DNA of 64,000 bases from Bifidobacterium actinocoloniiforme DSM 22766. GTDB lineage: Bacteria; Actinomycetota; Actinomycetes; Actinomycetales; Bifidobacteriaceae. A program made the translations under genes and the position numbers. The DNA is taken from assembly GCF_001263395.1 (NCBI RefSeq), contig NZ_CP011786.1, forward strand, positions 1,054,001 through 1,118,000. The letters run 5' to 3'. The notes under the pieces were generated by a model that ran no database searches, had not been told where the DNA came from, and worked only from the letters and a program-made list of their open reading frames with translations. Shown one piece after another: positions 24,457 to 63,229 of this stretch. Every line of letters begins with the position of its first letter. The first letter of the stretch is position 1.

Positions 24457-24504
24457 GCCCACCTGACTGAAACAGTGCAATACTACTGTTTCAGTCAGGT
24501 GGGC
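24457..24504 (+). terminator. Terminator after alcohol dehydrogenase
   Basis: A 19-bp perfect stem (24457-24475 with 24486-24504) and 10-nt loop, starting 27 bp after the stop. Confidence 0.8.
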
Positions 24505-24773
24505 GCTCATGTACAGCATGCACAGCAATCGCCAAAGGAGTGCGATCCAAGCGGCCCAACTCGATACAATCGCCAGCCCTCCGAAATTGCCGGCCGCAAG
24601 CCCTCCATCCCCTGCTCTCGGTATCCCTGCTGCTCTCGGTGTCTGCGGATACGCCTGTAGGCGGCCGCTTCGACGCCCTGCTCACCAACTGGCACCCGAA
24701 TGACGATATCGGTCTGATTAAATGGCCGTTCGGTTGGAACCTTAACCAGGGGTTTTGCTTGATTAACTAACGT
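24505..24773. other. Noncoding stretch upstream of the RCC1 surface protein
   Basis: 270 bp with no supported gene; short open frames here lack ribosome sites and family features. It holds the first copy of CAGGGGTTTT (24747-24756), repeated in the leader at 24814-24823. Confidence 0.4.
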
Positions 24774-24802
24774 CTGCGAAACTCGCGGATGAATGTTAGA
24801 CT
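24774..24802 (+). promoter_or_regulatory. Candidate promoter of the RCC1 surface protein gene
   Basis: CTGCGA (24774-24779) and TAGACT (24797-24802), 17-bp spacer. The -35 is weak. It would give a leader of about 125 nt. Confidence 0.35.
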
Positions 24803-24813
24803 ATTAAGAGGAG

Positions 24814-24938
24814 CAGGGGTTTTACCATGCCTGGCGTTTTGGGAACCGTACGGGGTTGGCATAACCCCTAGTTGTTGTTTTGATTTTTCGGTCCAAGCGC
24901 TTGAAGGCACACTAAGGGCCCAATTGGAGGGGTTATGC
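24814..24938 (+). promoter_or_regulatory. Leader with attenuator-like hairpin and start-codon-sequestering helix
   Basis: A single AACCCC element at 24863-24868 has three possible partners. GGGGTT at 24852-24857 makes a hairpin followed by a T-rich run (TTGTTGTTTTGATTTTT). AGGGGTT at 24816-24822 would compete with it. AGGGGTTATGC at 24928-24938, which contains the Shine-Dalgarno sequence and ATG of the surface protein, is an exact 11-base complement of GCATAACCCCT at 24859-24869. A 14-codon reading frame (24829-24873 region, MPGVLGTVRGWHNP) ends inside the hairpin. A CG-centred palindrome CAAGCGCTTG lies at 24894-24903. Confidence 0.5.
24829..24873 (+). CDS. Possible 14-residue leader peptide
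   Basis: ATG near 24828 opens a 14-codon frame (MPGVLGTVRGWHNP) whose stop TAG lies at the base of the attenuator-like hairpin. GGGG stands 7 bases upstream as a weak ribosome site. Its overlap with the hairpin suggests a translation-dependent leader, but it may be chance. Confidence 0.25.
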
Positions 24939-27900
24939 GCTGCTACCGTTCTTTGAGTGCCATCGTGGCTCTCATATCTCTGATTGTCCTGGGGGGGGGG
25001 GGCAGTTTAGCACGACCCGCCCCAGCGCATGCAGACTCCGTATCCGACGCGCAAGGTTTCTCCCTCTCGCCAATCAAAGGCCCAGCGGAAGGTGGCAACG
25101 ACGTCGCTATTACACCGCCGTTCTCGACGTCAGTTAAGTTTAGAGACATTTATGTCGGCAGCATCCATACCGTAGCGGTGGACTCCAATGGAGACGTTTG
25201 GGCATGGGGCGCTGGAAATCTAGGACAATTGGGCAACGGTTCAACGAACGCTTCCAATAACCTGCCTGTTCGCGTTAGAGTTCCCAATGGAGTGAAGTTC
25301 ACATCCATTAGCGTCGGACTGTGGCATAACTTGGCGATCGGCACAGATGGACACACATATGCTTGGGGTTACAACGTTTATGGACAATTAGGAAATGATT
25401 CTTTCGACAACGCTTTGGAACCCCAAAAAGTGAAAACTCCCGGCAACGTAAAATTTGTTAGCGTAAGCGCAGGTGGAACATCCTCTTTAGCCATCGGGGA
25501 CGATGGGAATGCCTATGCGTGGGGTTTTAATAATAGCGGGCAGCTCGGGGATGGCACGATTACAAACCGCAATACACCTACCCCTGTCAATACTTCTGCG
25601 AAATTCGCTTCTATCAGCATGGGCGGTCGACACGCTTTAGCAATCGGAACCGACGGCAAAATGTACGCCTGGGGCGATAACTCCTATGGAGAACTAGGAA
25701 ACGGGACTCCCGGGACTAGCCAACGCACCCCAATCGCTATCGAAAACGCGCCGAAGTTTAATACCGTTAAAGCTGGCGGCACCGACAGATGGGGCGGTAG
25801 TTCATACGATTTTTCCCTTGGCATAGGTAAAGACGGCACAACTTACGCATGGGGGTATAACGGCGCAGGCCAATTGGGCATAGGTTCCACAGACGATAAG
25901 TCAGTACCTACGCCGGTGAACCCTCCTTTAAAGTTCTCAGCAATGAGTCCTGGCGCGTATCATGCTCTAGCTCTCACCAATGATGGCGATGCTTACGGGT
26001 GGGGCCAAAATAGTAGTATCATACCAACGTTTGAAAGTGCTGGAAACATCGGAGATGGGTCACGTGTGGATCGGCATAGCCCAGTTGCCGTTCAGAAGCC
26101 AGATAATGTTTCGCCGGATTTCAAGTTCGTTAGCATAAGCGCTGGTTGGTCTTCGTCTGCGGCAATAGGAAACGATGGGAACGCTTACGCATGGGGGACA
26201 AACACATCTGGGCAATTGGGAGATGGGACAAACACCCTGCGACTTCAACCTGTTCGCGTAGCCAAACCTAAAATCGCAGTCACTAGCGTCAGCTTCGATG
26301 GCATTAACGCGGGGACGATTACCCACGATCCGGCTACGGATTTATTCCATGTCAATGCGCCTCAGCACACGTCCCCCGGGAAGATACAGGTGCGGGTGGA
26401 ATGGACAGTGAACGGACAGGCTCAGACGGCGGCTGTGCTGGATTATGAGTATATGGCTTCGTATTCGGTGAGCTTTGACATGGCTGGGGCACCGGTCACG
26501 CCGCCAGCGCAGCAGCATGTGATGGATGGGCAGAAAGCTTCTTGGCCCACGGATGATCTCAAGTGGGACGGACACTGGTTTGGGGGCTGGGAACTCAATG
26601 GGAATGCCTACGACTTTACCCAGCCGGTAACCAACAACATTACGCTCAAGGCCCGGTGGGATTCGTATACGTTCACTATTTCACCAGTCAAGGGGCCCAG
26701 CACAGGCGGCGCACACGTTACCGTGACGCCCCCGGCTTTCGACGCAACGCTGACGCAGGTGAGCGCAGGCTGGTACCACTCGCTGGGCTTGGGGCGCGAC
26801 GGGAAGGTCTACGCCTGGGGGCGCAACGATGCCGGACAGCTGGGCGACGGCACGACCAGCAACCGTACTTCGCCGGTCGCAGTGCATATGCCAGGCGGCA
26901 TGAAGTTCACACAGGTCGTGGCCGGGCCGAACGACTCCTTCGCCCTGGCCGCCAATGGCTTCCTCTACGCCTGGGGTTGGAACAGCAAAGGGCAGCTGGG
27001 CAACGGGAATACGGTGGACCAGTCCACGCCCGTGATAGTACCGGTGCCCGAAGGGTCTACCAAGTACACGAAAATCATTCCCGGCCGCGAGCACACCTTC
27101 GCTGTGACCGACACTGGGGTCCTTTATGCTTGGGGCGGTAACGACCAAGGGCAGCTGGGCATAGGCACGGTTTACAACTCGCCGACACCCGTCAAGGTCG
27201 AGTTGCCGTCTGGTGTCACAGGTTTTACGCAGATTAGCGCAGGAAACGCGCACACGGTGGCCATCAGCTCTACAGGACAGGCCTACAGCTGGGGTTCGAA
27301 CGGTTACGGCCAGCTGGGTTCGACAGCCGTTACAGTCGGCGGGCGGTCCTTGTTGCCGGTCGCGGTCACTGCGCCCAGCGGGGTGTCAGGCTTCAAACAG
27401 GTGGTGGCCAGCAACGACTGGAGCCTGGGCATCAGCTCAAGCGGCCGCATCTACACCTGGGGCTGCAACAGCGCCAACCAGCTGGGTAACGGCAACGGCG
27501 CCAACCAGAGCGCGCCAGTAGCGCCTACGCTGCCAACCGGCCTCAGCTTCGACCAAGTGAACGTAGTAGGGGACAGCGCGGTGGCGCTCGCCAACTCCGG
27601 CGCGGCCTGGGCCTGGGGCGACAACCAATACGGACAGCTCGGCAACGGCAATCAAAGCAACCAGTCCAGACCGGTGTCAATCAACCCACCCAGCGGTGTT
27701 ACCTATGCCAAAGTGACGGTCGGCAAGCAGCACAGCCTGGCCATAGACACCACTGGCAAGGCCTGGGCCTGGGGCGACAACCAGTACGGGCAGCTCGGCA
27801 ACAGCGCTGGCGGGTCGGCCGGGAACCTAAGCCTGACCGCAGTGGTGATGACACAGCCAAAGCTGGTCATCACCAAAGTGCAGTTTGACGGCACTGCCGG

Positions 27901-28222
27901 CACAGCGCTGACCGCCAACTCTAACGGCACCTGGGGCGTCGATACGCCCGCCCACGTTGAAGGTCCCGTGACCGTGACCATCTCCTGGAGCCTGGCGAGT
28001 GCGCCGCAAACCGACTACAAAATCAACTCCTACACCTATTTCACTGCGTTCACGCTACCCAAGGCCGGAACGGCGCCCCTGCAGCTACTGACCGGGAAAA
28101 CGCTGCTTCTGGTGAGCGCGCTGGCGGCTGGCTGCTGCGGAGGGTATCAGAATGCTCGACGGAAGCAATCGCGCCGCAAACCGGAGCACAGCAGCAAAAA
28201 CGGGGTCGCTCGCATCGGCTGA
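24935..28222 (+). CDS. Sortase-anchored surface protein with two RCC1 propellers and poly-G signal peptide
   Basis: 1095 residues. Signal peptide 1-33, containing a 12-G DNA tract that encodes LGGGGS. Module 1: an IPT-like strand (FSLSPIKGPAEGG), seven RCC1 repeats with the xxYAWGxNxxGQLGxG core (about 55-440), then a beta domain (about 443-510). A Listeria/InlB-type B repeat follows (about 513-577, ending ITLKARW). Module 2 repeats the order: IPT-like, seven RCC1 repeats (about 595-980), same beta domain. The C-terminus has LPKAG at about 1041, a hydrophobic helix and a basic tail, a sortase anchor. Module 1 DNA is visibly AT-richer than module 2. Probably an adhesin or host-interaction protein (inference). 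No sortase gene in the window. Confidence 0.85.
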   Translation: MRCYRSLSAIVALISLIVLGGGGSLARPAPAHADSVSDAQGFSLSPIKGPAEGGNDVAITPPFSTSVKFRDIYVGSIHTVAVDSNGDVWAWGAGNLGQLGNGSTNASNNLPVRVRVPNGVKFTSISVGLWHNLAIGTDGHTYAWGYNVYGQLGNDSFDNALEPQKVKTPGNVKFVSVSAGGTSSLAIGDDGNAYAWGFNNSGQLGDGTITNRNTPTPVNTSAKFASISMGGRHALAIGTDGKMYAWGDNSYGELGNGTPGTSQRTPIAIENAPKFNTVKAGGTDRWGGSSYDFSLGIGKDGTTYAWGYNGAGQLGIGSTDDKSVPTPVNPPLKFSAMSPGAYHALALTNDGDAYGWGQNSSIIPTFESAGNIGDGSRVDRHSPVAVQKPDNVSPDFKFVSISAGWSSSAAIGNDGNAYAWGTNTSGQLGDGTNTLRLQPVRVAKPKIAVTSVSFDGINAGTITHDPATDLFHVNAPQHTSPGKIQVRVEWTVNGQAQTAAVLDYEYMASYSVSFDMAGAPVTPPAQQHVMDGQKASWPTDDLKWDGHWFGGWELNGNAYDFTQPVTNNITLKARWDSYTFTISPVKGPSTGGAHVTVTPPAFDATLTQVSAGWYHSLGLGRDGKVYAWGRNDAGQLGDGTTSNRTSPVAVHMPGGMKFTQVVAGPNDSFALAANGFLYAWGWNSKGQLGNGNTVDQSTPVIVPVPEGSTKYTKIIPGREHTFAVTDTGVLYAWGGNDQGQLGIGTVYNSPTPVKVELPSGVTGFTQISAGNAHTVAISSTGQAYSWGSNGYGQLGSTAVTVGGRSLLPVAVTAPSGVSGFKQVVASNDWSLGISSSGRIYTWGCNSANQLGNGNGANQSAPVAPTLPTGLSFDQVNVVGDSAVALANSGAAWAWGDNQYGQLGNGNQSNQSRPVSINPPSGVTYAKVTVGKQHSLAIDTTGKAWAWGDNQYGQLGNSAGGSAGNLSLTAVVMTQPKLVITKVQFDGTAGTALTANSNGTWGVDTPAHVEGPVTVTISWSLASAPQTDYKINSYTYFTAFTLPKAGTAPLQLLTGKTLLLVSALAAGCCGGYQNARRKQSRRKPEHSSKNGVARIG
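24991..25002 (+). repeat. Poly-G tract (12 G) in the signal peptide coding region
   Basis: Twelve consecutive G lie 56 bp inside the gene. Losing one G leads to a TAG within three codons of the tract; gaining one shifts into a frame that stops about 45 codons later. This is the layout of a slipped-strand phase-variation locus. In this sequence the frame is ON. Confidence 0.85.
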
Positions 28223-63218: not shown

Positions 63219-63229
63219 CCCCCCCCCCC
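63219..63229 (+). repeat. Poly-C tract (11 C) between converging genes
   Basis: Eleven consecutive C, 14 bp after the DUF985 stop and 113 bp past the end of the minus-strand ABC gene. It lies in no supported gene. Confidence 0.7.

Follow-up and report, generated by a model that had tools for sequence, protein, structure and literature searches.

Insect-gut bifidobacteria possess dozens of RCC1 surface proteins. Proteins of this kind, carrying RCC1 repeats and an LPxTG motif, have been described in bee bifidobacteria (PMC4449606, PMC3447821); 10 RCC1 proteins have been reported in B. actinocoloniiforme and 7 to 24 in honeybee strains (PMC4449606). The gene analyzed here (24935-28222) encodes a member of the same protein family, while the leader that precedes it is absent from those descriptions. 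The text of PMC4449606 mentions neither phase variation nor homopolymers, the text of PMC3447821 does not mention frameshifts, and literature searches on phase variation of bifidobacterial RCC1 genes returned nothing relevant. According to the consulted passages of a study in the same genus, poly-G replication slippage has been reported for the sortase-dependent pilus genes of Bifidobacterium breve (PMC9187656), where an early G-tract, as in the present case, separates the secretion signal from the remainder of the protein and switches the reading frame ON or OFF. The B. breve switch, however, concerns pilus genes, whereas the present case concerns a large RCC1-repeat family in which slippage is putative; moreover, the present family combines the tract with a conserved leader RNA, and no leader is mentioned in the passages of the B. 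breve paper that were consulted.

The window, i.e., the whole stretch of 64,000 nucleotides that was analyzed, is part of the complete 1,830,060-base genome of B. actinocoloniiforme DSM 22766. The gene, its leader elements and its G-tract are all located on the plus strand. It encodes an RCC1-repeat surface protein of 1095 aa with a signal peptide and approximately 13 RCC1 repeats (Pfam PF00415, E 2.5e-155, 13 stretches), and is preceded by a Shine-Dalgarno sequence (GGAGGGG), which lies with the start codon at 24926-24937 in a context, TTTGGAGGGGTTATGCG, that is common to several paralogues. There were 40 stretches of similarity to this protein in its own genome and more than 100 in each of the relatives G007 and G018; the protein belongs to a large paralogous family found across four related bifidobacteria, and family leaders were collected upstream of paralogues in G000, G006, G007 and G018. 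The two closest homologues show 65% protein identity, and since no counterparts of the flanking dehydrogenase genes were detected next to them, their orthology is judged from sequence alone. Directly 3' of the alcohol dehydrogenase gene in the window there is an inverted repeat (24457-24504) with perfectly matching 20-bp arms and a spacer of 8 nt, which is possibly the terminator of that gene, though it has no obvious U-tract. A short open frame between the dehydrogenase gene and the leader (24540-24770), ending ...LLTNWHPNDDIGLIKWPFGWNLNQGFCLIN, may be a gene remnant.

A poly-G tract of 12 G is located at 24991-25002, about 56 nt after the ATG, inside the signal-peptide codons, and leaves the gene in frame (i.e., ON). 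Counterparts of 10 to 14 G were found 53 to 57 nt after the ATG in 45 RCC1 genes of the family. When reading frames were counted from single assemblies, in which G-runs are prone to possible assembly errors, 21 of the 45 genes were in frame at the tract and 24 were out of frame; in G007, a tract of 10 G was in frame (6 genes) and a tract of 11 G was out of frame (16 genes). The family shows two features of the homopolymeric-tract phase-variable class, a constant coding position and mixed frames, and such a mixture of ON and OFF frames among assembled genes is what phase variation would be expected to produce.

One leader plan is also common to at least 38 of the 45 poly-G RCC1 genes and consists, in this order, of an extended -10 box, a hairpin tipped with UU-GGGG-AA at the predicted RNA 5' end, a further hairpin, the Shine-Dalgarno sequence and the start codon; these 38 genes are matched by a covariance model of the leader, and several of the seven unmatched ones keep a weaker hairpin by eye. 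The window gene has its extended -10 promoter box, TGTTAGACT, at 24794-24802; this places the predicted transcript start at about 24809 and makes transcription of the leader likely. Among the family leaders, TGNTANNNT was found 35 to 49 nt 5' of the core CGGTTGGGGAAC in 33 of 36, against a background of 0.024 per such interval, and in nearly all copies a longer 5' hairpin has this core at its tip. Two copies of CAGGGGTTTT, 67 nt from each other, flank the -10 box of the window gene, one preceding it (24747-24756) and the other following it (24814-24823).

Searches with a covariance model of the leader (E up to 1) found 23 places in G007, 22 in G018 and 6 each in G000 and G006; by comparison, the same model found 0 to 2 places per genome, which is chance level, in 23 other genomes of the genus. 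Of 43 distinct places for which the loci were fetched, 42 are located 28 to 77 nt upstream of the start codon of a gene that has both a signal peptide and a G-tract, and the 43rd (L142) lies upstream of a family gene that has no G-tract. In two of these leader-bearing genes, RCC1 repeats were not seen over 3.3 kb; one of the two codes for InlB-like repeats and the other is apparently truncated. As the leader is found upstream of a non-RCC1 surface gene (G018 near 105 kb), it travels with the surface-gene start, whatever the type of protein. Of the weak matches of the model in other genera (E ~0.004), four were examined and attributed to chance, having neither an RCC1 gene nor a G-tract, and a collection scan for relatives gave three matches, all in unrelated bacteria and also judged to be chance. 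Five RCC1 genes of G018 (L142, L147, L151, L154 and L156) have no poly-G tract of 8 or more and still have the UU-GGGG-AA hairpin upstream; the stems in the tract-less genes of this genome differ (e.g., TGTTTT-GGGG-AAAACA and GCGTT-GGGG-AACGC).

The window leader matches the covariance model between 24809 and 24873 (25.5 bits, E 3.5e-4). The outer helix of its first (5') hairpin, P1, is formed by AGGGGTT (24815-24821) as the 5' strand and AACCCCT (24863-24869) as the 3' strand, and the 5' domain alone has a folding energy of -22.1 kcal/mol. The tip hairpin, P3 (CGTTTTGGGAACCG, 24835-24848), for which the family consensus is CGGUU-GGGG-AACCG, is divergent in this copy, with a TGGG tip as its loop and one stem mismatch. 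A further hairpin region before the Shine-Dalgarno sequence, P4 (24890-24921), can pair GGTCC (24890-24894) with GGGCC (24916-24920) and is weak here.

Analysis of a gapped MAFFT alignment with RNAalifold did not find a common fold, probably because the outer helices vary in length; own-versus-cross pairing tests, which do not depend on a shared register or a shared stem sequence, were used instead. Relative to shuffled arms, the P1 arms paired with their own partners at -4.06 kcal/mol and with those of other leaders at -1.19 kcal/mol (sd 0.57; p < 2e-5, 0 of 50,000 permutations). For the P4 halves of 27 non-redundant leaders, own pairing gave -13.5 and cross pairing -9.8 kcal/mol (p < 2e-5, 0 of 50,000). 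The six-pair tip stem was compared across 47 distinct copies, which are not independent because all are paralogues from four genomes; 79.4% of cells were paired (69.7% in shuffles), both sides had changed in 32 cells (16.9 in shuffles), and 20 further pair types were seen (14.1 in shuffles). The covariation score of this stem was 0.356, compared to 0.197 in the shuffles; none of the 500 shuffles reached the observed two-sided changes, further pair types or score, and slid registers gave 0.04 to 0.16. Kinship among paralogues is corrected in part by the slid-register and cross-pairing controls and is not corrected by the shuffles; where paralogues are close relatives, their cross pairs come to look like own pairs, so that kinship works against the cross-pairing tests and not in their favor. 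In the same 47 copies, each column of the UU-GGGG-A tip was conserved in at least 90%. Forcing the GGGG tip open came at zero cost relative to the free minimum for most copies, and the gain of leader folding energy over shuffles was modest (mean z -0.80, n=27), with several leaders near 0 or positive. Conserved position and compensatory pairs, two features of a structured cis-regulatory leader RNA, were both found.

Taken together, these data point, with moderate confidence, to the window leader being one of the copies of a structured and conserved 5' leader through which a phase-variable family of surface proteins shares post-transcriptional control. From the position of the promoter box, we infer that transcription starts just before P1, in which case the hairpin would cap the mRNA. 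The combination of a near-invariant tip with a freely varying stem is the usual sign of a recognized loop, and the invariant GGGG tip may be the recognition site for one trans-acting factor, be it a protein or a small RNA rich in C; one such factor would provide a single post-transcriptional handle, on stability or translation, for all members of the family. P4 would keep the ribosome site presented, and the poly-G tract would make a separate ON/OFF choice for each gene. A more tentative proposal is that these leaders represent an undescribed class of leader RNA, with one trans-acting factor over the whole phase-variable repertoire, such that slippage would pick the readable genes and the UU-GGGG-AA hairpin would set the strength of their expression. 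A covarying leader hairpin of a phase-variable surface family appears to be undescribed in the literature searched. With the common phase-variation tract and the covarying hairpin, the family can be tested as one regulated repertoire, and the UU-GGGG-AA hairpin represents a defined RNA bait for a regulator search.

The first-pass annotation of the window had read the same leader as a three-way switch, in which AACCCC would pair with a 5' copy of its partner, with the adjacent GGGGTT (as a terminator) or with the ribosome site, and in which a leader peptide would steer the choice. All of the sequence features it named are present. As claimed, GCATAACCCCT (24859-24869), which extends the 3' strand of P1, is the exact complement of AGGGGTTATGC (24928-24938); the two form a perfect inverted repeat of 11 nt, with 58 nt between its arms, that can cover the Shine-Dalgarno sequence and the ATG, and the additional AGGGGTT copy at the 5' end of the leader (24815-24821) is the one that forms P1. 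In a post hoc comparison, these 11 nt were the best start-site complement among 36 family leaders (3 to 7 nt in the other 35) and exceeded every mismatched leader/start control (n=1225, at most 8 nt); seven of the 11 nt are accounted for by AACCCCT, which already pairs with the 5' AGGGGTT. The three folds, with P1, with the local hairpin and with the sequestered ribosome site, lie close in predicted energy (-41.5, -42.7 and -43.4 kcal/mol), a spread of less than 2 kcal/mol, and in step-wise folding P1 is predicted to form first and to give way to the sequestered form only after the start region has been made (transcript reaching 24938). Because these three folds are nearly equal in energy, a gene-specific effect on translation is possible in the window leader, the full stability of which shows no gain over dinucleotide shuffles (z = 0.35). 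The proposed hairpin between GGGGTT (24852-24857) and AACCCC (24863-24868) can also form (-8.1 kcal/mol alone), but the T-rich run said to follow it proved to be a poor U-tract, TAGTTGTT. Similarly, the 14-codon frame MPGVLGTVRGWHNP (24827-24871, ATG at 24827, TAG at 24869-24871) exists, but it has no counterpart in the other leaders that is conserved in presence, position or sequence and, by this comparison, is probably not a functional leader peptide. In attenuation leaders with a leader peptide and a terminator, a short uORF and a 5' leader hairpin are likewise found, whereas neither the uORF nor the terminator is conserved in the present family, in which 5 of the 36 leaders contained a terminator-like site, where shuffles predicted 2.8. 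Conservation of the complement in related loci had been named beforehand as a check that could refute this reading, and the complement is missing from all 35 other leaders, including those of both closest homologues; own pairing between leader and start region was no better than cross pairing (p = 0.35). On conservation, then, the readings as a switch, an attenuator or a leader peptide all fail, and the three-way switch appears very unlikely. What stands of the earlier reading is a structured leader with a real AACCCC helix, for which the evolutionarily kept partner is the 5' AGGGGTT and not the ribosome site. The match between the P1 3' strand and the start region, seen in one gene only, is probably incidental, and any sequestration would be a local extra; a gene-specific effect of this kind is possible and differs from what selection has kept family-wide.

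Other explanations accept the family-wide hairpin and differ in what it would do. The 5' hairpin could act only to protect the mRNA end from decay, like the ompA stabilizer, with no need for a specific partner; this could account for its predicted position close to the transcript start and for pairing that is kept while the stem sequence varies freely, but a generic stabilizer would not need a near-invariant UU-GGGG-A tip, and this explanation is considered unlikely. The near-identical start regions of the paralogues and the palindromic stem could also indicate that the element acts as DNA, i.e., as the site of a regulator or as a recombination hot spot for the exchange of paralogue 5' ends. 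However, the tip is strand-asymmetric, always found on the coding strand and always downstream of the -10 box, and the tip helix and outer arms covary, which would be superfluous in a double-stranded binding site, making an action as DNA distinctly improbable. Finally, given that every copy is a paralogue from one of four genomes and that the motif has been lost in some copies, the leader structure might be an evolutionary left-over of a recent common ancestor, with no regulatory role; the chance of this seems slight, as the leaders are very divergent outside the tip and yet their pairing has been kept by two-sided changes.

Comparison with known classes of leader RNA and with candidate partners did not place the element. 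No match to the leader was found in Rfam 15, either for the window at gathering scores or, with E values as high as 5, for 11 loci of paralogues. Binding of CsrA to the GGGGA tip was rejected, as PF02599 was unmatched in the own genome and matched in CsrA-carrying controls. The 6C RNA (RF01066), considered as a C-rich partner of the GGGG tip, was unmatched in the own genome in a weak search, in which the control genomes, too, all stayed below the cut-off. Leaders read by LoaP or RfaH contain a short 5' hairpin and stand ahead of long genes or operons. The present leader shares the short 5' hairpin with them, but the specialized NusG paralogue is missing here; exactly one NusG was found in each of 10 genomes tested, and antitermination of the LoaP/RfaH type was rejected. 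The sequence GGCGGTAGCGTG, which we take to be the RfaH ops element, was found in one leader copy and is missing from most others.

On the minus strand of L126 (G000:C1:1755000-1770000), an RCC1 gene with a signal peptide like those of the G-tract paralogues reads ...AMILLGGNAAARPAHAE and has no long G-tract, as if locked ON. On the minus strand of L202 (G006:C12:15000-24000), the leader, the signal peptide and a 12-G tract are followed by no long surface-protein frame, and this locus is apparently a decayed family gene. In the window, an 11-C run (63219-63229) lies between convergent genes, i.e., a minus-strand gene for an ABC-transporter-like ATPase and a small plus-strand gene, and is apparently located outside coding sequence.
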